Positions 22,887-39,944 of a DNA stretch of 52,001 nucleotides are shown here, in pieces. Location: NCBI GenBank assembly GCA_003141855.1, contig PLNS01000027.1, forward strand, positions 108,470 through 160,470, read 5' to 3'. Under the pieces are notes generated by a model. It ran no database searches, was not told where the DNA came from, and was given only the letters and a program-made list of their open reading frames with translations. The stretch's first letter is position 1. Each line of letters starts with the position of its first letter. A program made the translations under genes and the position numbers. Origin of the DNA: Candidatus Bathyarchaeota archaeon (GTDB lineage: Archaea; Thermoproteota; Bathyarchaeia; Bathyarchaeales; Bathycorpusculaceae).

Positions 22887-24401
22887 TTAGGGCAGTGGCG
22901 TGATTAGTTGAAGTTGACGTGTGGCGGGTTCAAGCAGGTTTAAGACTAACTGCGGGAACAGCCCCAAGACCAGTAATGCTGCGGCCAAGATGAAGATGGG
23001 GATGAGTATGCGTTTGGATTCTTTTATCACCGTTGCATCTTTGCTTTTCCTTGCGTACATGTAGTGTATCAGTCTAAACAAGTAGGCGGCTTGAAGGACG
23101 CTTGTCAAGACGCCTATGACTGCCAGCCAACTCAGGTTTGCTTGAAGTGCGGATGTGAAAACTAGGTATTTAGCCATGAATCCTCCTAAAGGTGGAACCC
23201 CAATAAATGATAATCCAGCAATTACAAGTGCTAAACTTGCAAGCGGCAGTTTCTTGCCAATACCTGAGAAGTCTTCTAAGGTTTTGAATCCATGTTTGTT
23301 TATTATACCGACTACCATGAACGCGAGCGCTGTAGTGATACCGCCGATTAAGAAGAAGTAGAGGTTGCCGATTAGACCGAGTGAGGTATAACTTGTTATT
23401 GCTATTAGGTTGTAGCCGACGTCTGCGACGCAGATGTACGCTATTAAGCGTTTTACGTCGTTTTGGATTAGGGCGAATATGTTACCAGCTATCATGGTTA
23501 AGGCTGCCAGGATGGCTAACATGAAAGTCCAATCTAACGTTGCATTTGGACCTTTTGGAATTACAATATACAACAATATTCTTATGAGAATATAGTAGCT
23601 GCCTTGGTCAACAAGAGCTGAGAGGAAAGCTGATGATGGCGCTGGGGCTGCCGTGTATGCGTCAGGTAGCCAGAAGTGAAAGGGAACGATTGCGGCTTCA
23701 ATCGCGTAGCCAGCAGCTATGAAAACGAAAGCGAGTATGAGGAGACTCTTGTCAGATACAGCTATCGTAGTTAAGGCATCTCGCAGGGCTATGAAGTTTA
23801 GGGTTCCAGTTATGCCGTAAACGATTGAGAGCCCGAAAAGCACGAATGCAGAAGCGATGATTACCATTACTAAGTACTTTAGGGTGGCGTTGAGGCTGAA
23901 CGCGTTTTTGCGGTACATCATCAGGAAGGCTGCCGCGGCTGTTGCTGCTTCCCAGAAGATAAAAAATGTTAAGAGGTCGCCTGAAAGAACAGCGCCCAGC
24001 AAGGCCGCCGTGAGCATCAGCATTATGGCGAAATATCTGTCTGAGGGTCGCTCGTTTGAGTTAACGAAGAAAACCGTATAAATCACGACTACTGCGCTGA
24101 TTGCGACGATGATTATTGCCATGTAAATTGATATGGCGTCTACAAGGAAGGAACTTGAAATTATCGAGGATGCGCCACCGTTTAAGGTTAAGTTCAGAAG
24201 TCCCGGGTTGGCTATGCTGTAATAAGTTAATGCTAGGTTGGCTACGGTTGCGCCTGCAATTATGAAGACGACTATAAACCAGCCGAGGGTCAAGGCGGTT
24301 TTATGACTACTTTTCCTAACAATTTTGAATACGGGAATTGTCAGTAAAGCAGAAATAATTAAGCTTATTATTGGTAATGAGATATCTAGGATTTCAACCA
24401 T
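22887..24401 (-). CDS. nuoN: Complex-I-like antiporter subunit NuoN
   Basis: The 504-residue, 14-helix protein belongs to the Mrp-antiporter-like family with the conserved Glu in FIFWEAATAAAAFLMMYR and the long broken-helix motif FHFWLPDAYTAAPAPSSAFL then SALVDQGSYY, with later lysines in the second half (KRLIAY). It is one of three pumping subunits (L, M, N) of the membrane arm. It is the last gene of the ten-gene cluster, 21 bases after nuoM. Nothing is missing. Confidence 0.92.
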   Translation of the reverse strand: MVEILDISLPIISLIISALLTIPVFKIVRKSSHKTALTLGWFIVVFIIAGATVANLALTYYSIANPGLLNLTLNGGASSIISSSFLVDAISIYMAIIIVAISAVVVIYTVFFVNSNERPSDRYFAIMLMLTAALLGAVLSGDLLTFFIFWEAATAAAAFLMMYRKNAFSLNATLKYLVMVIIASAFVLFGLSIVYGITGTLNFIALRDALTTIAVSDKSLLILAFVFIAAGYAIEAAIVPFHFWLPDAYTAAPAPSSAFLSALVDQGSYYILIRILLYIVIPKGPNATLDWTFMLAILAALTMIAGNIFALIQNDVKRLIAYICVADVGYNLIAITSYTSLGLIGNLYFFLIGGITTALAFMVVGIINKHGFKTLEDFSGIGKKLPLASLALVIAGLSFIGVPPLGGFMAKYLVFTSALQANLSWLAVIGVLTSVLQAAYLFRLIHYMYARKSKDATVIKESKRILIPIFILAAALLVLGLFPQLVLNLLEPATRQLQLITPLP

Positions 24402-24422: not shown

Positions 24423-25955
24423 TTAGCCAAATTGCACCGTTTGTATTAGATTTAGGAAAGGAGTCGGATAGATCCCTATTATGATGACCATGACTACCAC
24501 AATTGCGAGGGCGATTTTCATGTATTTGGGTACTTCAACGATTTTTTTCTCTCCCCAGTTTTTATTGGAACCGAGAAAAACGCGTGAAGTGAATCTTAGC
24601 GAGTAAGCAAGTGAGAGCACTGTTGCAACGAGCATTAAAACTGTAGGGAGTATGTAGAAGCTGTCAGTAGCCATTACTTGGAAAGCGCCAATGAATATCA
24701 GAACCTCGCTTATGAAGCACGCAAACGGAGGCGCTCCAGCGATGCTTAAAGCGGCTATAGTTGCTGAAACTGCTGTAAACGGCATTTTGCCTGCTAATCC
24801 GCCCATTTCGCGGATGTCTCGTGTTTCCGTTTGATGCATGACTGCTCCGGCGGAAAGGAAGAAAAGACCTTTACTTACAGCGTGGCTGAGGATATGAAGA
24901 ATTGTTCCAGCTATAGCCGTAGTTGAAACAACTAAGACTGCAGTTCCAGCAACCGCGTTAGAGGGAAACAGTGAGATACCAAACATGATATAACCCATGT
25001 GGGCGATGCTGGAGTAGGCGATAAGCCGTTTTATGTCTGTTTCCACCAGCGCAATTAGGGAGCCGAAGAACGCAGAAATTATGCCAAAGATTGCCAATGC
25101 ATGCAGGAAGTTTAATGCGAAAGCTGGGTCGGCTAAGTTGACTGCTGGAAAAACAACACCCAGTGATAAACGCAGAATTGCGTAAGCTCCTGCGCTGATA
25201 ATGACTCCGCTAAGTAACGCAGACATCGTTGCTGGAGCTTCAGAGTGGGCATCTGGCAGCCACATGTGCACGGGCACAATTGCCATTTTAACGGCGAATC
25301 CAGCGGTCAGGGCGATTAGGACCCACTTGACAACGTCGGGGAAGGCAGTCGTCAGTAGGGCGGTTTGAGCTTGGAACATGTCAGTGAAGCCTGTTAGCCA
25401 GTAGATTGCGCCTATGCCTAAGAGCACGAAGACGGCGCCTGCATGTGTGAATATGAAGAATTTGAATGCTGCCTTGTATGAATCACGATAGCCCCAGTTG
25501 CCCACGATGAAGTAGGCGGGAACTAGCATTAACTCCCAGCAGAAGTAAAATAGTATCAGGTTGGATGTTATGAATACGCCCACAAGACCGATGGATAGCA
25601 TCGTTAAAAGGGCATAGTAAACTGCAACGTTTTTCTTGCCTTCCATGTAGTTTATAGAGAAGAGAGCAGCAGCGAAAATTAAAATGACACTTATAATTGC
25701 TATTGAAACGCTCATGCCATCCGCAAAAAGCGAAAAGTCGGCATTCAAAATCTGAATCCAAGCGTGGGATTCCACATACCGGTGGCCTGGATTATTAAGA
25801 ATCGCCGGAACAGTTGTTAAAAGCAACGCCAAAATAACCAATGCTATTAAAGCAACAAAAATGGCTGCGGCTTTATTTGATTTTTTCCCTGTTAAGTAAA
25901 CAAAGGGTATGCTGATAGCCGGGAGAGCGAATACTGCTAGTAAGGTAAAGGACAT
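24423..25955 (-). CDS. nuoM: Complex-I-like antiporter subunit NuoM
   Basis: The 510-residue, 14-helix protein carries the family marks FYFCWELMLVPAYFIVGNWG, PVHMWLPDAHSEAPATMSAL and DIKRLIAYSSIAHMGYIMFG, which include the Glu and Lys residues of the proton path. It is the second pumping subunit of the membrane arm. The gene lies between nuoL (5 bases upstream) and nuoN (21 bases downstream). Confidence 0.93.
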   Translation of the reverse strand: MSFTLLAVFALPAISIPFVYLTGKKSNKAAAIFVALIALVILALLLTTVPAILNNPGHRYVESHAWIQILNADFSLFADGMSVSIAIISVILIFAAALFSINYMEGKKNVAVYYALLTMLSIGLVGVFITSNLILFYFCWELMLVPAYFIVGNWGYRDSYKAAFKFFIFTHAGAVFVLLGIGAIYWLTGFTDMFQAQTALLTTAFPDVVKWVLIALTAGFAVKMAIVPVHMWLPDAHSEAPATMSALLSGVIISAGAYAILRLSLGVVFPAVNLADPAFALNFLHALAIFGIISAFFGSLIALVETDIKRLIAYSSIAHMGYIMFGISLFPSNAVAGTAVLVVSTTAIAGTILHILSHAVSKGLFFLSAGAVMHQTETRDIREMGGLAGKMPFTAVSATIAALSIAGAPPFACFISEVLIFIGAFQVMATDSFYILPTVLMLVATVLSLAYSLRFTSRVFLGSNKNWGEKKIVEVPKYMKIALAIVVVMVIIIGIYPTPFLNLIQTVQFG

Positions 25956-25960
25956 TTTTT

Positions 25961-27952
25961 TTACACTCCTATCGTTAATATTATAAGGATTGCGATTAGT
26001 ATGAAGCCGAGCACTGCTGCGGCGATATAATTCCTGAGGGATGTCGAAGGCGCTTTCTTCATTTTCGAGACTCCGGTCAGCGTCTTATTGGCTAAGACAT
26101 TTATTAGTTTATCCAGTGATTTGTCCGCATAAACATCAAGGTAAACATGAACTTCGTTTGCAAGATGAATAATTGTTGAAGCAAACTTTTGTGGAAAGAG
26201 ACTAATCATACCCTCAAAACGTCTAACACCATCGGAAACGTTTGAAATGCCCCTTGCTATACCTCCGTAAACATCGTCAAAGAAGTAGCCGTGGCTGAGA
26301 ATAGTTGTAAGTGGGTTTTTACCTGCTGCGATGTTTCGGACACCTTGGTAGTTCTTGTAGTATGAGTAGTATGCAATCAGTCCGGTGGGTATTAGCAGGG
26401 ATAGGAAGATGGGTGTTTCTAAGTTTGTGAAGGCTCCAAGTAGAGAAGTTTCTAAAGATACGTGCATGAAACTTGCGACTAATGGCTCAGCGAGTCCCCA
26501 AACGATACATAAGCCTGCAAGAATCATGGCTGGGATGAGCATGACTTTTGGTGCTTCATGAACATGCTGTTTTTTTAAGTGTTCAGACTCTTTTCCCATG
26601 AACACCAAACTGAACATGCGGACACTGTACGCGAAGGTTATGGCGGTTGTGGCGTAGAGCAGAATGATTTGTATGAGGTTTCCTGCGTCGGTTACGCTGG
26701 TGATGATTAAGCCTTTGCTGAAGAACGCTGCAAAAGGCGGCAAGCCACTTGTGGTAATTATCATTATAGCCATTAAAATGAATGAAATCGGCATGGTTTT
26801 CTTAAGACCGCCCATCAAACGCATGTCACGGGTGCCAATGGCGTGTATAATGCCTCCTGCGAGGAGGAATCCGAGACCTTCGAAGAAAGCGTGGCTTATC
26901 ATGTGGAATAAACTGGCGAACCAGCCGATGGATGCAGCTCCTTCAACAGCTGTGCCTAAACCAGCCATCATGAAGCCGATTTGGCTAATGGTTGAGTATG
27001 CGAGGACTCCTTTGATGTCGGTTGTTGTTAGGGCTAATGTTGCGCCAATTATGGCGGTTAACACTCCTATCCAGGTGACTACTGGGAACCAGAGAGGTTG
27101 CAGTGCAGCAATTAGCACGGGTGCAACTGAGAATATGAGTATGAACCTTGCAAGCAAGTAGATACCTGCTTTGACCATTGTTGCAGCGTGTAAGAGGGCG
27201 CTGACTGAGGTTGGTGCTTCCATGGCGCTATAGAGCCAAGTGAACAATGGAAGCTGCGCGGACTTTGCAATTGCGCCGCCTAAAACCAAGAACGCAGCAA
27301 TAACCAGAAGGCCAGTATCCAAAGTTCCTGCTGTGGCCGCGGTCTGGATGCCATTTATTATTCCATGGAAACTGAAGGTTCCGAACATAGTAAAGAGGAT
27401 GCCTATGGCTGCAAGCAAGGCGATGTCGCCGATGCGGGTCATGATGAAAACTTTAGTGCCTGCCCGGACAGATTCTGGCCGCTTGTACCAGAACGAGATT
27501 AGTGCATACGAGCATAAGCCTACCATTTCCCAGAAAATGAACATCTGGATCAAGTTATCTGAGATTACTAGGCCTATCATTGAACCGATGAAGAGGAGCA
27601 GTAGGAAATAGTATCGTGTTAAACCTTCTTCGCCTTTCATGTAGCCTAGCGAGTAGATGGCAATGATTAACCCAAAGAAGGCAACCAGCGTAGTGAATAA
27701 AACACTGAGCGGGTCAATGAACACTCCAGCGCTAATGCCTGTGATCCAAGCAACCGAAGTGCTTGTGGCTTCACCAGAACCGAAGAAAACGCCGGGCACC
27801 AGTGAAAGCGCCAAGCCGGCAGTTATTACTGAGATTGCCACTGCGAAGTAGTTTCTGGCTTTAGCGCTGTATTTTGCGATTAATGGAACAAATAAGCTGG
27901 CTATAAGCGGAAGGATCCAGACAAGCCATGACGAGACATCTTCAAGAATCAT
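25961..27952 (-). CDS. nuoL: Complex-I-like antiporter subunit NuoL
   Basis: The 663-residue protein shows FIFWEMVGLCSYALISFWYK and the classic NuoL block LPLFTWLYSAMEAPTSVSAL followed by LHAATMVKAGIYLLAR, and extends past the 14 antiporter helices by about 120 residues ending in a last hydrophobic helix (about 640-660), as expected for the long lateral helix of NuoL. This supports a full-length membrane arm rather than the shorter arm of most group 4 hydrogenases. ATG overlaps the nuoK stop by one base. Confidence 0.93.
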   Translation of the reverse strand: MILEDVSSWLVWILPLIASLFVPLIAKYSAKARNYFAVAISVITAGLALSLVPGVFFGSGEATSTSVAWITGISAGVFIDPLSVLFTTLVAFFGLIIAIYSLGYMKGEEGLTRYYFLLLLFIGSMIGLVISDNLIQMFIFWEMVGLCSYALISFWYKRPESVRAGTKVFIMTRIGDIALLAAIGILFTMFGTFSFHGIINGIQTAATAGTLDTGLLVIAAFLVLGGAIAKSAQLPLFTWLYSAMEAPTSVSALLHAATMVKAGIYLLARFILIFSVAPVLIAALQPLWFPVVTWIGVLTAIIGATLALTTTDIKGVLAYSTISQIGFMMAGLGTAVEGAASIGWFASLFHMISHAFFEGLGFLLAGGIIHAIGTRDMRLMGGLKKTMPISFILMAIMIITTSGLPPFAAFFSKGLIITSVTDAGNLIQIILLYATTAITFAYSVRMFSLVFMGKESEHLKKQHVHEAPKVMLIPAMILAGLCIVWGLAEPLVASFMHVSLETSLLGAFTNLETPIFLSLLIPTGLIAYYSYYKNYQGVRNIAAGKNPLTTILSHGYFFDDVYGGIARGISNVSDGVRRFEGMISLFPQKFASTIIHLANEVHVYLDVYADKSLDKLINVLANKTLTGVSKMKKAPSTSLRNYIAAAVLGFILIAILIILTIGV

Positions 27953-28269
27953 TATGCTTCAACCTCACTTTCATCTTTATCTTGAATCAGCTGCACTATT
28001 TTGCTGATGTCGCTTGTTCCGTACTTCTTGGCTACAATAACAAGCAACGCCAAAATTACTCCGCTAATGGCGGTATCTGTTGAGAACGCTAAGATCAGGA
28101 ATGCTTCTCCTAAACCTACACCTGCGGCAGAAGCAAGTATAACAAAATTTAACGTGGCTGCAGTAGCGATTAACTCTACTGAAATGAAGACTTTCAGGAG
28201 TTGACGGTTGGTGAGCAAGCCGTAAATTCCGACTGCCAGCATCACTAAGGATAATATGACAAAGTCCAT
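27952..28269 (-). CDS. nuoK: Complex-I-like subunit NuoK
   Basis: The 105-residue protein has three helices. The first buried acidic residue of NuoK is kept in KVFISVELIATAATLNFVIL (Glu). At the position of the second buried Glu the sequence has Asp, in ILAFSTDTAISGVILALLVI (E to D), a conservative change that retains the charge. The C-terminus is a 20-residue charged tail (IQDKDESEVEA). It overlaps nuoJ and nuoL by single bases, so translation is coupled. Confidence 0.9.
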   Translation of the reverse strand: MDFVILSLVMLAVGIYGLLTNRQLLKVFISVELIATAATLNFVILASAAGVGLGEAFLILAFSTDTAISGVILALLVIVAKKYGTSDISKIVQLIQDKDESEVEA

Positions 28270-28733
28270 TATTTCCCACCCTTCTTCTTCTCATATAAGA
28301 CAATAGCGATTCCTAACGCCACCGTCAAAATAACCAGAGCCTGCAAAATAACATCCAAGCCCCGCACGTTCCACAATGCGTCGCCGAAAGAAATGTTGGA
28401 AGCAGCTGCCCCTGTGGCACCTGAAACAGATAGAAAAATCGCTGGTAACGACAAAACTGCTCCAGCGCCAATTAAAGCGCCAGTACGTTTAGGGGAGGTT
28501 TTCTTGGTTGGTTTATCGCCCAACATTTCGCCTGATAAGAAAAGGATGGCTAATGTGCCCACACCGACGGCAAACTGGAAGATAGCTGCAAAGATTGCGC
28601 CGTTTAACACGTAAATTAATGCAGTGAAAAAGAAAGTTCCTGCCAATGCCGCAACGGAATAGATGACTTCGTCGAGGAAGAGCGCCAATACGGCGGAGAT
28701 TATTAGGCCTACTGCGAGAATTTCAAAGATCAC
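28269..28733 (-). CDS. nuoJ: Complex-I-like subunit NuoJ
   Basis: The 154-residue protein has five helices with the family block SVAALAGTFFFTALIYVLNG then AIFAAIFQFAVGVGTLAILF, including the pi-bulge region of TM3 (FAVGVGTLAIL). It forms with A and K the link between the E-channel and the antiporters. A loop of basic residues (TKKTSPKRTG) separates helices 3 and 4. It overlaps the nuoI stop by four bases. Confidence 0.88.
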   Translation of the reverse strand: MIFEILAVGLIISAVLALFLDEVIYSVAALAGTFFFTALIYVLNGAIFAAIFQFAVGVGTLAILFLSGEMLGDKPTKKTSPKRTGALIGAGAVLSLPAIFLSVSGATGAAASNISFGDALWNVRGLDVILQALVILTVALGIAIVLYEKKKGGK

Positions 28734-29179
28734 TGTGATTTAGCCTCCGTAGCGTTTGGGTTTGGCTTCATGATTAATGCGAATTTGTCAGTTGTGGCTA
28801 ACTCGTAGAAGTCGGAGCTTTTTATTGCCTCTCGGGGGCAACTTTCAACGCATTGGTGGCAGAAAATGCATTTGTTTAGGTTGATTTGGGGGCGTTTCCT
28901 GCCTCCTTCAATCTCAACGATTTCAATTGCTTTGGCTGGGCAATCTCGGACGCATACTCTACAGTTGGAGCCAACGATTGATTGTACATCTAAAGTTAGC
29001 CCATTCTTGCCTGTTCCGATGTCGATGATGTTGCAGGATTTAATCTCGTAAACTGTCTTACCTCGGGCATCGTCGGGAAGCTTAGGTTTCACGAAAGGAT
29101 ACTTTGTTGTGGCTGGCTTAGTGAATATGTGGGATGCTGCCCGTTTGAATATTGGAGATATGCGTGATTTTTTCGTCAT
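28730..29179 (-). CDS. nuoI: Two-cluster ferredoxin subunit NuoI, first motif lacking one Cys
   Basis: The 149-residue form starts MTKKSRISPIFKRAASHIFT two bases after the nuoH stop. The second motif (residues 104-114, CIFCHQCVESCP) is a complete 4Fe-4S site. The first has only C73, C76 and C80 (CRVCVRDCP); the place of the first Cys, three residues before C73, is Gly70 (sequence IVGSNC). The cluster is thus 3-Cys, or uses another ligand such as C49. An in-frame upstream ATG at 29380 runs through nuoH and is rejected. The subunit passes electrons between a ferredoxin-like donor and the B/CD module. Confidence 0.88.
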   Translation of the reverse strand: MTKKSRISPIFKRAASHIFTKPATTKYPFVKPKLPDDARGKTVYEIKSCNIIDIGTGKNGLTLDVQSIVGSNCRVCVRDCPAKAIEIVEIEGGRKRPQINLNKCIFCHQCVESCPREAIKSSDFYELATTDKFALIMKPNPNATEAKSQ

Positions 29180-29181
29180 TG

Positions 29182-30171
29182 TTAGACCACCAATGGGTAA
29201 ACCCATGTTACCAATGCAACGGTGAGCATCAAGGATAGTAATGCAGCGGGCAAAAGGATTCTCCAGTTGCCTGATAAGACTTGGTCGATGCGGAAGCGGG
29301 CAAACACGCATGTGATGTACTCGGTTATAGTTACGACTACTAGCAGTTTGAGGACAAACCACAAGGTATACCAGAACCATGATGCCCCGAAGAACACTGG
29401 TCCGTATGGTCCGCCGAGGAACAGTTCAACCACTAAAGCTGAACCGAAGACCACTTGCACATCGCGTGTTAAGTGTAGGAAGGCTAGTTTTGCGCCTGTG
29501 TATTCGGTTTCTAATCCGCCGACGAGTTCACTTTCTGCGTGAGGAACGTCGAAGGGGTCTTTTTCGAGTTCTGCCTGCATAGTTATGATGAATAGGACAA
29601 AAGCCCATGGCGCTAAAAGTATGAATGGAATGACCTGGCTTGAAGCTATCGTGGCAATACTTAAGCTTCCAGCAATGAAAGCAGGCGTTAACGCGATTAG
29701 GAAGAGCGGTATATCATAGCCCAAAAACTGGGTTAACACTCTTGCTGAGCCAATGGTGCCGTATGGATTGCATGATGCCCAACCAGCAAGGAACAACAAA
29801 AAGTTGGCGATTGTTGCAAACGCCAAAATAACGATCAAGTCGCCGCTAAAACCATTGACGGAAAGAACGCTTGCGCCGTCAACGGGTATGAAACAGAAAG
29901 CAAAAACCATGATTGTAAAAGCAACCAGAGGCGCAAACTTGAAAACGGTTTTTTTAGCTTCTCTTGGCGTAATATCTTCTTTTGTTAATAGTTTTATGAA
30001 GTCTGCTAAGGGCTGAAGAATACCTCCTGGACCTGCAACCATTGGACCGACGCGGTTTTGTAGGCGTGCTTCGATTTTTCGCTCCATCCAATCGCAGAAT
30101 AACGTTAAGAGCAGTATGAAGGTGAAGCCTGGGAAGACGAGTATACGGAAGATTAGGGTAAAGTCGATCAT
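29182..30171 (-). CDS. nuoH: Complex-I-like subunit NuoH
   Basis: The 329-residue, eight-helix protein contains RKIEARLQNRVGPMVAGPGG (the Glu-Arg-rich first loop that touches the quinone-site region) and the key loop EKDPFDVPHAESELVGGLET then EYTGAKLAF, with the acidic residues of the E-channel. In hydrogenase relatives the same subunit contacts the [NiFe] module. It lies seven bases after nuoCD. Confidence 0.93.
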   Translation of the reverse strand: MIDFTLIFRILVFPGFTFILLLTLFCDWMERKIEARLQNRVGPMVAGPGGILQPLADFIKLLTKEDITPREAKKTVFKFAPLVAFTIMVFAFCFIPVDGASVLSVNGFSGDLIVILAFATIANFLLFLAGWASCNPYGTIGSARVLTQFLGYDIPLFLIALTPAFIAGSLSIATIASSQVIPFILLAPWAFVLFIITMQAELEKDPFDVPHAESELVGGLETEYTGAKLAFLHLTRDVQVVFGSALVVELFLGGPYGPVFFGASWFWYTLWFVLKLLVVVTITEYITCVFARFRIDQVLSGNWRILLPAALLSLMLTVALVTWVYPLVV

Positions 30172-30178
30172 TTCTGGG

Positions 30179-31756
30179 TCACCGGTCCGTGCATGAGAAG
30201 CATGGGTCTAAGCTAACAAAGTTGGCTGGAACATCAGCTATGCTCTCACCTATTGCTGTTTTGAGGAATGATGGAATGTTAGCGAATGTTGGGGTGCGGA
30301 CTTTAACGCGGTCAGGCATGTCTGTTCCGTTGCTTTTAACGTAGTAGAAGAGTTCGCCTCTTGGGGCTTCAACGCGGTTTACTGCTTCGCCTGCAGGTAC
30401 AGACCTGGGTGTGTCAATTCGGAAGGGTCCAGATGGCAGGTGGTCGACTGCATACTCGATGATGTTGATGCTTTCTTCAACTTCATCCATGCGAACATTC
30501 ATTCTTGCCCATGTATCGCCTGTAGTGTAAACTATTTCTTTGAAGGGAATCTCGCCATAGGCTTCATAAGGTTCATCCTTGCGTACGTCTATGTCGACGC
30601 CTGAACCTCGAGCCACTGGACCAACCACTGAAAGCTTGAGTGCATCTTCTCTTTTGAGTACGCCTACGTTTTTCATGCGTAGCCTTAGTGTAGGTTCATT
30701 TTCGTAAATTTGTCTATAGAAGGGCAGTTTTCCGCGGAGGTCTTTGAGGGTAGCTTTGATTTTGGGGACATCAGTTTCTTTTATGTCTCGTCTTACGCCG
30801 CCGATAGTCATGAGTGACGAGTAAACGCGGTTACCGCTGGTTAACTCGATTAAATCCATAATTGGTTCGCGGTCTCTCCAGAAATACTGAAACAGGGTTT
30901 CATAACCGATTTCTAATCCTGCATGACCCAAAGTCAAAAGGTGGCTGTGTAGCCTGTTGAGTTCTAAAGCTACTACGCGGAGGTATTTGGCTCTTGGAGG
31001 AACCTCAGTTTTCAATATTTTTTCGACAGCTTCAACAAAGCCACAAGCATGGATACTATTGCAAATCCCGCAGATTCGTTCAACCAAGTAAACGTCTTGC
31101 AGGTAAGTGCGTGATTCAGTTGCTTTCTCGATACCCCGGTGAACGTAGCCTATTCGGGGTTCAACTTTAGTTACTATTTCTCCGTCAACTGTAACAGCGA
31201 ATTTTTCAGGCTCCAACAACGCTGGATGCTGGGGACCGATGATAATTTTTACTAGCCTTTCATTCTCTGGAAGCTTAATTTCTTCAGATGGTGGTGTTGG
31301 GACTAGTTTTACTTCGCTTGCCTTAACATCTTTTCTTAATGGGTAAACGCCTTGAGGCCAATTTTCTGACAGGACAAAGTGTCCTAGGGTTGGGTGTCCC
31401 TCGAAGACTACGCCTAAAAGGTCGGCTACTTCCAGTTCATGGAAGGCGGCGCCTGGATGAAGGTCGACTATTGTTTGGATTTTCGGGTTTTCTTTAGGTA
31501 CTTCAGCTTTTATTGTTACAAAAACGTTGGATGTGTGTACGTGGTAGTAGACGCCTATGTTTGCGCCAAGGTCTAAACCTGTTATGGCTGTTATGCCAGT
31601 CTTCTCATCCGCTTCAATCATTGATTGTAAAACATCGCGGTGTAAGCCGTTGTTGACGGTTATGGTGGCTGCGCCAAGTTTGCCTAGTTGAATTTGGACT
31701 TTATCGCCAAATTTGGATTTGATTAAGCTAATCATGTCTATGTTACTGTTTGGCAA
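30179..31756 (-). CDS. nuoCD: Fused NuoC-NuoD with intact [NiFe]-hydrogenase site
   Basis: The 525-residue fusion has a NuoC part (residues 1-150, ending VFEGHPTLGHFVLSENWPQG VYPLRKD) and a large NuoD-like part (160-525). Unlike NuoD it keeps both nickel-binding motifs: R227-ICGIC-NSIH (C229, C232, H236) and the final D517-PCFSCTDR (C519, C522). The protein ends right there, at the place where NuoD ends with a cysteine-free motif, so no C-terminal peptide needs to be cleaved by a maturation protease. This predicts a real [NiFe] site producing or using H2. A fused C-D order also occurs in some NuoCD proteins. Confidence 0.9.
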   Translation of the reverse strand: MPNSNIDMISLIKSKFGDKVQIQLGKLGAATITVNNGLHRDVLQSMIEADEKTGITAITGLDLGANIGVYYHVHTSNVFVTIKAEVPKENPKIQTIVDLHPGAAFHELEVADLLGVVFEGHPTLGHFVLSENWPQGVYPLRKDVKASEVKLVPTPPSEEIKLPENERLVKIIIGPQHPALLEPEKFAVTVDGEIVTKVEPRIGYVHRGIEKATESRTYLQDVYLVERICGICNSIHACGFVEAVEKILKTEVPPRAKYLRVVALELNRLHSHLLTLGHAGLEIGYETLFQYFWRDREPIMDLIELTSGNRVYSSLMTIGGVRRDIKETDVPKIKATLKDLRGKLPFYRQIYENEPTLRLRMKNVGVLKREDALKLSVVGPVARGSGVDIDVRKDEPYEAYGEIPFKEIVYTTGDTWARMNVRMDEVEESINIIEYAVDHLPSGPFRIDTPRSVPAGEAVNRVEAPRGELFYYVKSNGTDMPDRVKVRTPTFANIPSFLKTAIGESIADVPANFVSLDPCFSCTDR

Positions 31757-32282
31757 TTGGTTTTACCTCCTCAACTACTGGTTGAGCCGCATGGGCTACT
31801 ACGACTTCTGGTTTGGCAACCTCAGGCTCTTTTGCTGGTTTAGGCTGTTTCTTAGCTTTAGGCGGATTTAACGCATTTAGAAGCTTAACGACTCCGTCAA
31901 GCATTGCTTCTGGACGCGGTGGACATCCAGGTATGTAAGCGGTAACTGGGATTACTTTGTCTACGCCGCCGACCACGTTGTAGTTTCCTTCAAAAACTCC
32001 GCCGCTGCATGCGCATGCGCCGATGGCTACGACGAATTTGGGCTGCGGCATCTGGTCATAGATGCTTTTTAGTCGTTCTGCACATTGCTGTGTGACGCAG
32101 CCAGTTACTAATAAGACGTCGGCGTGTCTGGGTGAGGGTTCGAGTTTTACGCCGAAGCGTTCAACGTCATATTTTGGCGTCAGCAGGGCAACTATTTCTA
32201 TGTCGCAGCCGTTGCAGGCGCCAGAGTTAAAGTGCAAGACCCAAGGCGACTTTACTCGCGCCCACGTTTTTATGTCAGTCAT
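31743..32282 (-). CDS. nuoB: [NiFe]-hydrogenase small subunit/NuoB-like
   Basis: The 179-residue subunit has the hydrogenase-type SGACNGCDIE motif (C23, C26), C90 in VVAIGACACSGGVF and C120 in YIPGCPPRPEAM, the four ligands of the proximal [4Fe-4S] cluster. NuoB of complex I has adjacent cysteines at the first site, so this is the hydrogenase arrangement, but GGVDKVIPV TAYIPGCPPRP resembles NuoB strongly. After residue 140 comes a 38-residue tail of Pro, Lys, Ala, Glu and Val (KAKKQPKPAKEPEVAKPEVV) that looks disordered. It overlaps nuoCD by 14 bases. Confidence 0.9.
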   Translation of the reverse strand: MTDIKTWARVKSPWVLHFNSGACNGCDIEIVALLTPKYDVERFGVKLEPSPRHADVLLVTGCVTQQCAERLKSIYDQMPQPKFVVAIGACACSGGVFEGNYNVVGGVDKVIPVTAYIPGCPPRPEAMLDGVVKLLNALNPPKAKKQPKPAKEPEVAKPEVVVAHAAQPVVEEVKPIAKQ

Positions 32283-32623
32283 TAATCTTTTCCTCCTTCG
32301 ACAATAACCAAGCCTGCGACAAGAATTATGCCGAGGTAGAGGATTAAGAGAAGCGGGTTTGAGCCTGCTAAGGTGAAAGAAGCAAAAGCAAGAACTAAAA
32401 CAGATGAGTCAAAGATTATGAAGTAAATTAGGTACTTGTATAACGATACGTTGATTTTTAACCCTTGGAAGGATACTTTTTCTCCGCAAGCGTATGCTGC
32501 TTGCGCGTTCTCGCTTATGGTGGTTTTAGGCGCTGATCGTTTGCCTAAAGTATAGATCACCATTGTTGAAATGAAGATTAATATGAAAGCTATGAGGCCT
32601 TCAACAATGCCCTCAACAATCAT
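32282..32623 (-). CDS. nuoA: Complex-I-like subunit NuoA
   Basis: The 113-residue protein has three helices with the family motif AAYACGEKVSFQGLKINVSL between helix 1 and 2 (YxCGE, holding the Cys of the loop that faces the quinone site) and DSSVLVLAFASFTLAG in helix 2. NuoA is usually absent from group 4 hydrogenases of the Ech/Mbh/Hyc type, so its place as the first gene here is informative. The start has GGAG about 10 bases upstream (on the minus strand AACGGAGAGACAAAGT). Confidence 0.88.
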   Translation of the reverse strand: MIVEGIVEGLIAFILIFISTMVIYTLGKRSAPKTTISENAQAAYACGEKVSFQGLKINVSLYKYLIYFIIFDSSVLVLAFASFTLAGSNPLLLILYLGIILVAGLVIVEGGKD

Positions 32624-32971: not shown

Positions 32972-33472
32972 TTATTCTGTTTCTGCCGTCCCATGCCATC
33001 TTCGTTCCAAATAAAGAATCAAGCTGAAAAGTCCCCTGCTGGCGATAACAAGAATGAGCAGTTCAATCTCAGAAGCTCCGACAACTACAGTCCTTATGAT
33101 CTCTGCACCAATAAAAATCTCTAAACCCAACGTTAAATATCCAGCCAAATAACGCGTGGATAAAGATGGCTGGTAAGGATCTTTAAGTTTCCGCTGCAGA
33201 AATCTAATCATTATCAAAGAAGCTCCAAAAGCAATCACACCGCCACCGAAAAGGTACAAAACGTCAGTTGCCAGGGTTAGGATAACATAAACTACTTCAT
33301 AAATTGAACCACCAAGCGTGTATGTTGTACCGCCAGGTAATAGCGTAAAAACAAACTTCGGATTGATTAACGTTAAAACGGCGCCGATAACGGCTACTAG
33401 AACAACGATAAAAACTACTATAACCGTTAAAGAACTGACTGCTTTGTTGCTTTCAACTTGGTTTTCAGCCAT
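32972..33472 (-). CDS. DUF1622 membrane protein
   Basis: The 166-residue product has an N-terminal hydrophobic helix (about 15-40) and two or three more in the DUF1622 core: RFLQRKLKDPYQPSLSTRYL then AGYLTLGLEIFIGAEIIRTV and ELLILVIASRGLFSLILYLE. The LEIFIGAEI-RT and SLxLYLE patterns are typical of the family, which is widespread and of unknown role. It lies 350 bases upstream of nuoA on the same strand and could share a regulator or transcript with the operon. Confidence 0.82.
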   Translation of the reverse strand: MAENQVESNKAVSSLTVIVVFIVVLVAVIGAVLTLINPKFVFTLLPGGTTYTLGGSIYEVVYVILTLATDVLYLFGGGVIAFGASLIMIRFLQRKLKDPYQPSLSTRYLAGYLTLGLEIFIGAEIIRTVVVGASEIELLILVIASRGLFSLILYLERRWHGTAETE

Positions 33473-33595: not shown

Positions 33596-34696
33596 TTAAA
33601 CTTTAATTTCCTCAGCCAAACCAGCTTCTGGATACGGGAACAGATGAGCTTTGTCCAGCGGATAAGTAATCGTGACGTCTTCGCCGATCTTAACCCACTC
33701 CTCCGTCAGCGACGGCCTGTTGATAACGAAGCGGTCACCGTTTTCAAGCCTAATTTCATAACGAACAACTATACCCTCGAAAGTGGTTTTTTCAACTTTC
33801 CCAAACAAACTGTTCTCAGCCACAACATGCCCCCTTTTCATTTCGCAGGTTTCAGGCCTTATAGCTAAAACCACTCTTTCGCCCGGCTTTACATTCGACT
33901 GGTTTATGGCTTTAATCTTTAAGCCCTGTCGCAACTCAATTTCCGACTGGCCGTTTGCTTTAGTTATGTAGCCTTCTAAAAAGTTGGATTCACCAATAAA
34001 GTGGGCTACAAACAAGCTGTCAGGATGCATATAGAGTTCCTGTGAAGTTCCAACCTGCACAATCTTGCCTTTCTTCATAACTGCAATCCTGTCTGAAATG
34101 GACATGGCTTCAGCTTGGTCGTGGGTAACGTGGATTGCTGTCAGTTTGAGGTCTTTTGCCATTCGGCGAATTTCGTACCTAATCTCGTTGCGTACTTTAG
34201 CGTCAAGTTGTCCTAATGGTTCGTCCAAAAGCAGGGTTTTGGCGCCTGCTGCTAATGCTCGGGCAACGGCTATTCTCTGCATCATGCCGCCGCTTAACTC
34301 GCTGGGATAAGCGTTCAAGCGTTCGTTGAGCTTAACAAGCTCAAGCACTTCGTGTCCAATCGTTTCCGCCTGTTTCGCATCGTAGTTTTTGACTTTGGGA
34401 CCATAGAGAACGTTGCTCCAAGCAGTCATGTGCGGAAACAACGCGAAGGTTTGGAAAACAAAACCGATGTCTCGGTCTTCAGGCGGCACTTTGTCGACGC
34501 GTCGGTCGCCGATGTAGATTTCTCCGCTATCCGGTTCGATGAGCCCAGCAATCAGTCTTAGCAAGGTGGTTTTGCCGCAGCCACTTGGCCCCAACAAAGA
34601 GAAGTATTCTTGGTCATGTACAGTTAAGCTAACGTCGTCTAGTGCGTAAAGTTTACCGTATTTTTTTGTGACGTTTACGACTCGGACATCGGGCAT
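33596..34696 (-). CDS. ABC transporter ATPase with C-terminal TOBE domain
   Basis: The 366-residue protein has Walker A GPSGCGKTTLLRL, the signature LSGGMMQRIAVARAL, Walker B LLLDEPLGQLDAK and the switch His in AIHVTHDQAEAMSIS, then a TOBE-type domain (about 240-360) with IRPETCEMKRG. This is the CysA/PotA/FbpC group of importer ATPases (sulfate, polyamine, iron, molybdate or tungstate). The paired permease is the two-domain fusion upstream. No substrate-binding protein is found next to them, so the substrate cannot be told. Confidence 0.88.
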   Translation of the reverse strand: MPDVRVVNVTKKYGKLYALDDVSLTVHDQEYFSLLGPSGCGKTTLLRLIAGLIEPDSGEIYIGDRRVDKVPPEDRDIGFVFQTFALFPHMTAWSNVLYGPKVKNYDAKQAETIGHEVLELVKLNERLNAYPSELSGGMMQRIAVARALAAGAKTLLLDEPLGQLDAKVRNEIRYEIRRMAKDLKLTAIHVTHDQAEAMSISDRIAVMKKGKIVQVGTSQELYMHPDSLFVAHFIGESNFLEGYITKANGQSEIELRQGLKIKAINQSNVKPGERVVLAIRPETCEMKRGHVVAENSLFGKVEKTTFEGIVVRYEIRLENGDRFVINRPSLTEEWVKIGEDVTITYPLDKAHLFPYPEAGLAEEIKV

Positions 34697-39445: not shown

Positions 39446-39519
39446 GCGGTAATAGTACAGCTTGGTCAGTACATAGGCTTGCCAAGTCTAGGACCCGGGT
39501 TCAAATCCCGGTTACCGCA
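39446..39519 (+). tRNA. tRNA-Gly (anticodon GCC)
   Basis: The 74-base gene folds perfectly: acceptor stem GCGGTAA/TTACCGC, D-arm GTAC-AGCTTGGTCA-GTAC, anticodon stem TAGGC/GTCTA (one G-T pair) with loop TTGCCAA giving anticodon GCC, and T-arm CCGGG-TTCAAAT-CCCGG. Discriminator base A; CCA is not encoded. It lies 347 bases before a second tRNA with the same anticodon. Confidence 0.95.
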
Positions 39520-39866
39520 CTGTAATTATTCCAGTTTATTCCAATTCAAACCTTTTTCAAGCATTGTAAGCCCTCTGGGAATATGTTCAGCTCTCTAAGA
39601 TCTATTTTGGCGGTTCACCGAAATTCATTAGCAAATGGCTTTTACTGGCGAAAAGGAACTCAAAGCAGTAAACGATGGTTGGCAACTGGTAAGAGAAAGG
39701 GAAATCATCGATAACTCTACATGAAGAAGTCAGTTTAGCGGCAACAGTAGGGCATGATTGACTTAACCAAAAAGCAGATAAATACCAGCTGAGTCTATCA
39801 CAAAGTCGACTCGACGCAAGGCGAGAATATCGCCAAAGGCCGTAGTCCAATAAAAACGCATGGTGC

Positions 39867-39941
39867 GCGGTCGTAGTCTAGTTTGGTCTAGGACATCAGC
39901 CTGCCACGCTGACGACCCGGGTTCAAATCTCGGCGACCGCA
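39867..39941 (+). tRNA. tRNA-Gly (anticodon GCC), second copy
   Basis: The 75-base gene has acceptor GCGGTCG/CGACCGC, D-arm GTCT...GGAC, anticodon stem TCAGC/GCTGA with loop CTGCCAC (anticodon GCC) and T-arm CCGGG-TTCAAAT-CTCGG with one G-T pair. The bases after the discriminator A are CCA (39942-39944), so the 3' end may be encoded. The body differs from the copy at 39446 in the acceptor, D and anticodon arms, so it is not a recent duplicate. A 25-base copy of its 5' end lies at 38894. The intervening 39520-39866 contains only unconvincing short frames. Confidence 0.95.
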
Positions 39942-39944
39942 CCA

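Follow-up and report, generated by a model that had tools for sequence, protein, structure and literature searches.

The closest described system to the locus reported here is the Hfo hydrogenase of Bathyarchaeia subgroup 6 (Loh, Herve and Brune 2021; PMC7886697). According to the sections of that paper on the enzyme, none of the group 4g hydrogenases had been biochemically characterised when it was written. Its main text does not use the words NuoI or FpoI, and its sections on the enzyme describe no subunit I motif, stretched spacer or unlinked paralogue; the passages of PMC10477458 on Hfo and hydrogenase likewise leave the subunit I motif undescribed. A second point of comparison is the photosynthetic NDH-1 complex, in which, by the account in the relevant sections of PMC7021789, ferredoxin binds to the outer end of the peripheral arm and delivers electrons to cluster N6a in NdhI, from where they pass to N6b and then N2. 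Electron entry through N6a without NuoEFG is what we propose below for Hfo. NDH-1 differs in being quinone-reducing and in having its docking tuned by separate small subunits, NdhS, NdhV and NdhO (PMC7021789, same sections). In Hfo, unlike NDH-1, docking would be tuned by an insert within subunit I itself. Cysteine motifs of the ferredoxin type are commonly read as a fixed CxxCxxCxxxC signature, but reading the subunit I (HfoI) described here in that way, without gaps, leads to error. The lengthened cysteine spacing of Alvin-type and Azotobacter ferredoxins is a precedent for insertions inside a cluster motif, although there the added residues are fewer and occupy a different part of the motif.

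The window, by which we mean the whole 52,001-nucleotide stretch analysed, carries a contiguous operon on the minus strand in the order A-B-CD-H-I-J-K-L-M-N. It comprises the NuoA-like hfoA (32282..32623), hfoB for the small subunit, in which the CNGCD, TGC and PGC cysteines are kept (31743..32282), the hfoCD fusion (30179..31756), hfoH (29182..30171), hfoI (28730..29179), hfoJ (28269..28733), hfoK (27952..28269), hfoL (25961..27952), hfoM (24423..25955) and hfoN (22887..24401), with hfoI lying between the NuoH-like and NuoJ-like genes. The [NiFe] motifs of HfoCD, L1 CGICNSIH and L2 DPCFSCTDR, agree with both published subunit D patterns, C[GS][ILV]C[AGNS]xxH and [DE][PL]Cx[AGST]Cx[DE][RL], as given in the motif description of PMC7886697. 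Among the ORFs flanking the operon, three of which were domain-scanned, no FpoF/O or NuoE/F/G was recognised. The window thus shares with the published Hfo, as far as the sections on its gene clusters describe it, the gene order, the lack of FpoFO and NuoEFG, and both [NiFe] motifs (PMC7886697). The closest named relatives are mostly Bathyarchaeota, Ca. Bathycorpusculum species included. On the basis of lineage, synteny and motifs, we assign the operon to Hfo, the Fpo-like group-4g [NiFe] hydrogenase of Bathyarchaeia, and HfoI to subunit I, the predicted electron relay of this energy-converting hydrogenase in the Bathycorpusculum lineage.

The hfoI ORF occupies exactly the positions reported in a first-pass annotation of the window, which gave no strand; we place it on the minus strand. 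That annotation was right to see here a NuoI-like component of a [NiFe] complex whose first 4Fe-4S motif is abnormal. The 149-residue product is a long form of the NuoI/FpoI/MbhN-type subunit, in which a Pfam scan found Fer4 domains; it scored 62.6 bits against TIGR01971 (NCBIfam NuoI), below the curated cut-off of 113.05. Translation confirmed a complete, canonical second motif (C104, C107, C110 and C114; 28838..28870, minus strand), the three cysteines C73, C76 and C80 (28940..28963, minus), and Gly70 (GGC; 28970..28972, minus), and the codons GTT GGC TCC AAC TGT had been read correctly (28961-28975 on the minus strand). Motif 1 of HfoI runs C-x23-C-x2-C-x3-CP, and the C-x2-C-x2-C-x3-CP spacing is therefore absent from it. 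By its sequence, we regard HfoI as a divergent, non-canonical member of the NuoI/FpoI/MbhN subunits that carry two [4Fe-4S] clusters.

Alignment with relatives places the first cysteine of motif 1 at C49 (codon TGC; 29033..29035, minus strand). The window's own genome encodes a canonical I paralogue elsewhere (G000:C26, L002) that reads VFDIQLC-VG-C-GL-C-GKE-CP, opposite which HfoI reads VYEIKSC49-(23 residues)-C73-RV-C76-VRD-C80-P. This paralogue and the in-operon orthologues share the pattern [YF]DIxxC-x2-C-x2-C-x3-CP and have no insert. In a gapped alignment their Cys1 falls on C49, followed by an insertion in HfoI, and C73, C76 and C80 take the places of Cys2, Cys3 and Cys4. The same register emerged from phmmer against MbhN of the Pyrococcus furiosus Mbh (PDB 6cfw_N), the closest solved sequence (E 4.2e-13), in that the match splits at the insert: a weak first block (20.3 bits) pairs query residues 9-49 with chain residues 5-46, and a second pairs 72-134 with 48-107. 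MbhN therefore has a short spacer, its blocks ending at 46 and resuming at 48, against 49 and 72 in HfoI. The stretched Cys1-Cys2 spacer of HfoI comprises residues 50-72 (28964..29032, minus strand). In our judgement it is very likely that C49 is a retained ligand and not a recruit.

Two AlphaFold2 models of HfoI, both apo monomers, reached mean pLDDT values of 70.8 (built from 32 sequences) and 75.4 (47 sequences). Both place strands at residues 51-53 and 62-64 within the insert, a block whose pLDDT is only 58-63. The most likely arrangement of the insert is a beta-hairpin, with C49 kept close to C73 at its base. Foldseek and VIA-align searches with the first model returned chains of complex I, HycF, MbhN and NdhI; VIA-align Z scores among the 50 matches listed were 8.0-10.8, with NuoI, HycF, MbhN and NdhI chains among them. 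The best VIA-align match was HycF of the E. coli formate hydrogenlyase (7z0s_F; Z 10.8), with 92 residues aligned that cover 113 positions of the model but 93 of the chain, a difference that matches the insert. HycF also carries additional features peculiar to it. MbhN, which also has two 4Fe-4S motifs, aligned over 88 residues (Z 8.9), spanning 113 in the model and 92 in the chain. With low-confidence stretches omitted from both alignments, the spans of 113 against 92-93 amount to about 20 extra residues in the model relative to HycF and MbhN. The model of HfoI, of moderate confidence, thus shares the NuoI/MbhN fold.

We assigned the stretched motif to a cluster through residue numbering. In a review table, Cys126 of NDUFS8 is listed as coordinating N6a. 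HfoI residue 73 maps to residue 80 of the mature NDUFS8-type chain 5lc5_I by phmmer, and we infer from this numbering that mature-chain residue 126 corresponds to Cys4 of motif 2. Cys126 as an N6a ligand, combined with the ferredoxin ligand pattern, would then assign Cys1-3 of motif 1 to N6a. Together with ferredoxin docking in NDH-1, this assignment most likely places the stretched loop at the partner-docking surface. In the mechanism we propose, C49, C73, C76 and C114 would bind a complete [4Fe-4S] cluster, the distal N6a equivalent, at the surface where ferredoxin docks, and C80, C104, C107 and C110 would bind the N6b equivalent, which would pass electrons to the HfoB cluster and on to the [NiFe] site in HfoCD. 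The cluster of the stretched motif is one that we take to be comparable to cluster FB of PsaC. The insert hairpin would form a lid beside N6a that could alter either the docking of a soluble partner, probably ferredoxin, or the potential which that partner sees. We put at roughly three in four the probability that HfoI carries a complete [4Fe-4S] cluster and a remodelled lid where the partner docks, and not a 3Fe-4S site; the cluster type is predicted from the retained ligands. We slightly favour a role for the loop in reshaping either the docking of the partner or the surroundings of N6a, the effect on the partner being predicted from the likely position of the loop, and an effect on the redox step, as raised in the first-pass annotation, is possible.

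The hydrogenase type is already known; what the locus adds is a loop, specific to the lineage, that interrupts a ligand motif and for which we propose an electron-gate role. Our literature search, which covered few subscription papers, found no published insert in cluster motifs of this kind. A cluster holding on to its ligands across a 23-residue stretch between two of them would be evidence that a lid can be accommodated at the surface-facing cluster of a complex-I relative. The genus also has orthologues without the lid, which provide natural controls, and the system offers a concrete handle on the choice of electron partner by group 4g hydrogenases.

We searched for the long form across the class with a long-form profile, and it was present (E <= 1e-40, insert present) in 19 of 256 genomes; the scan requires similarity to a known long form and would miss a separate insertion event in a more remote NuoI. 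The only other match at E <= 1e-40 was the canonical paralogue in the window's own genome. Eighteen of the 32 genomes of the window's genus have the long form, and the nineteenth (G124), from another genus, has two copies. Among 65 named loci, 15 were long, 43 had the canonical pattern and seven fell outside the search pattern. The 14 genomes of the genus that lack a long I are a mixed group. In four (G005, G006, G013 and G022) the Hfo operon carries a canonical I at the position of the long one, an arrangement also present in G032, G034 and G048 outside the genus. No intact I gene was found in the other ten: nothing matched CD in eight, remnants of CD are present in G023, and in G029 the operon is broken by a contig end, with A, B and part of CD preserved and I beyond the assembled stretch.

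In a tree of the operon built from A, B, CD, H, J, K and L, the 20 long operons formed one clade (support 100/99) nested among the short ones. HfoI was left out of this tree, as were M and N, for which contig-truncated loci had supplied the wrong antiporter subunits. The outgroup branches of G034 and G048, both long, meet in it, and the letter make-up of Chersky_a is odd. With operons from outside as the outgroup, the nesting of the long clade among short operons indicates that the insertion was probably gained once within the lineage. A tree of I without the insert columns again recovered the long forms as one clade (100/100). The stem of the long clade measured 0.40 changes per site in I (0.31 in a second I tree), compared to 0.045 for the other subunits under a different model, and the gain thus seems to have been accompanied by faster change in I. 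The two long operons of G124 (L039 and L040) stand apart within the long clade, for which horizontal transfer or a chimeric bin is possible. We also evaluated the insert as a tandem duplication of the segment upstream of it by comparing each insert with its own upstream sequence. For 19 of the 20 genes the Smith-Waterman score did not stand out from shuffled sequences (a fraction of 0.29-0.997 of the 300 shuffles scored as high; 0.05 in one gene), and this origin was rejected.

Neutral growth of a tolerated loop, with no functional consequence, is an unlikely explanation. In its favour, the insert changes more quickly than the remainder of HfoI (pN/pS 0.45 vs 0.28) and its length varies by two residues: in all 20 long-form genes, from 19 genomes, the Cys1-Cys2 spacer is 21-23 residues long compared to the canonical two (22 residues in 13 genes, 23 in five and 21 in two). 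All of these spacers are whole codons in frame, and in all eight close pairs listed synonymous differences in the insert exceeded non-synonymous ones, from 8:1 to 7.5:6.5; the G028/G014 pair gave 7 to 1 and the window/Chersky_a pair 7.5 to 6.5. Because of the whole-codon spacers and the synonymous excess, we regard the insert as translated protein under purifying selection, albeit looser than that on the rest of HfoI. This selection argues against neutral growth, as does the invariance of N50 and D64 in a 12-row alignment. The long I stem relative to that of the other subunits, with the difference in models noted above, weighs the same way. Outside the insert, seven positions (42, 48, 74, 75, 77, 100 and 111) share no residue between the 20 long forms and the six short in-operon forms, and four of them (48, 74, 75 and 77) adjoin C49, C73 or C76; such clustering of changes at the proposed N6a ligands is also at odds with neutral growth.

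The first-pass annotation had instead taken Cys1 as replaced by Gly70, leaving a 3Fe-4S or non-Cys-ligated cluster with C49 incidental or recruited, and this we consider very improbable. It fits an ungapped reading of the window protein, and the insert region is of low model confidence. The apparent loss comes from aligning without a gap; Gly70 sits inside the insert, and its place is occupied across the 20 long genes by Gly in 19 and Arg in one, never Cys. The eight cysteines C49, C73, C76, C80, C104, C107, C110 and C114 are invariant in all 32 proteins of an alignment (16 long and 16 canonical) whose rows were chosen without requiring Cys1. The same columns are invariant in 47 aligned proteins, where 13 of the 15 added rows were chosen by a pattern that already includes Cys1. 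C49 was rightly named as a candidate ligand; its recruitment is contradicted by its alignment with the original Cys1 and its invariance in 32 of 32. With Cys1 kept as C49, neither a 3Fe-4S cluster nor a non-Cys ligand is needed to account for motif 1, and the canonical in-operon orthologues and in-genome paralogue, which lack the insert, further support the retained-ligand reading.

Removal of the stretch as an in-frame archaeal intron or other element, restoring the canonical motif, is hardly credible: the insert is a discrete block whose excision could leave CxxC spacing, but the whole-codon spacers in 20 of 20 genes, the amino-acid conservation and the synonymous bias all oppose it. A sequencing or assembly artefact can be dismissed even though the named records are mostly labelled as MAGs or bins, since the long forms are phylogenetically coherent and come from 19 genomes, the named ones from many different isolates, judging by their titles; a base error, which the first-pass annotation would have recognised by a Cys at the Gly70 place in relatives, is likewise rejected, as 20 long-form genes have the same arrangement and none has that Cys.

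Of the 18 genomes of the genus with the long form, ten encode an additional, canonical I that stands apart from any further Hfo gene within the stretch read. Three of the ten lie on contigs of about 5-6 kb (G016, G021 and G024), that of G021 at a contig end, and are less sure. The I paralogue of G009 (L120), which adjoins a second CD gene in a second cluster, was left out, making the count 10 and not 11 of 18, and the extra short I of G124 (L164) was not counted since it falls outside the clade of unlinked copies. No intact unlinked I was found in the other 14 genomes of the genus. Fisher-type figures worked out by hand are about 0.0007 for 10 of 18 against 0 of 14 and about 0.07 against the four short-operon genomes only; the genomes are related and neither is a clean test. 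The unlinked copies formed one clade (99/92 in one I tree, 90/87 in the second) and retain the [YF]ELA and [KR]PxTxxYP segments that flank the cluster motifs. With a mean pS of 0.79 and pN of 0.27 (11 sequences, the ten and that of G124), they are under purifying selection.

Five of the ten unlinked copies lie directly upstream of ftr, which encodes formylmethanofuran:H4MPT formyltransferase (identified by Pfam for one). The gene beside ftr, downstream of the unlinked I copies, is presumably that of release factor aRF1. In a search of 30 ftr loci, a copy was adjacent in these five and in G023, two loci gave weak ferredoxin-like matches (L192 and L196), and 22 gave none. In G023, the copy upstream of ftr is broken, at the same site where intact copies stand elsewhere, and CD pieces lie at two contig ends, read in two frames, with no other Hfo subunit on the stretches read around them. 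The frameshift, close to where a contig stops, may have come from assembly, which is a less ready explanation for the missing neighbours. In G023 both the CD gene of Hfo and the unlinked I copy (L148 / L170 and L197-L198) have apparently decayed in parallel, which suggests, from this one genome, that the unlinked copy serves Hfo. We raise, as a doubtful proposal, the possibility that Hfo in this lineage can use either of two subunits as its electron gate: the one from the operon, whose distal cluster the loop would cover, and the canonical one encoded separately, often next to ftr. If true, exchanging them would allow a single hydrogenase to change its electron partner, with general ferredoxin and the formylmethanofuran branch of CO2 fixation as possible alternatives. 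Eight of the 18 long-form genomes, from incomplete assemblies, have no unlinked copy, a weak point for this proposal. Flavodoxin-like genes occur near two unlinked I copies (L106:7654-8853 and L103:10321-10893); the 207-residue protein matches Pfam Flavodoxin_5 below the cut-off, and the 190-residue protein of L103, with no Pfam match, clusters with it by blastp.

Other complex-I-like clusters were encountered in these genomes. The window's own genome has a second one (L163:7825-9905; G000:C3) with B-, CD-, H- and antiporter-like genes, whose B-like protein has no cluster cysteines and whose CD-like protein has no [NiFe] cysteines, as in a cofactor-less complex-I relative. CD-like matches of 31-32% identity in six other genomes of the genus are possibly the same complex. 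The second cluster of G009 (L120:7553-16922; G009:C79) is a rearranged Hfo-like one, with a CD that carries DPCFSCTDR and a canonical I, and it continues with divergent H, A, K, N, L and M genes on both strands. In G016 (C162:12107-14511), a CD-like gene (46% identity over residues 163-525) lies near an I-like gene and probably belongs to another complex. In the window itself, a DUF1622 gene (32972-33472) lies between the Hfo operon and an ABC transporter, whose ATPase, with a TOBE_2 domain, is at 33596-34696. Two tRNA-Gly(GCC) genes (39446-39520 and 39867-39944) lie about 350 bases apart on the same strand.
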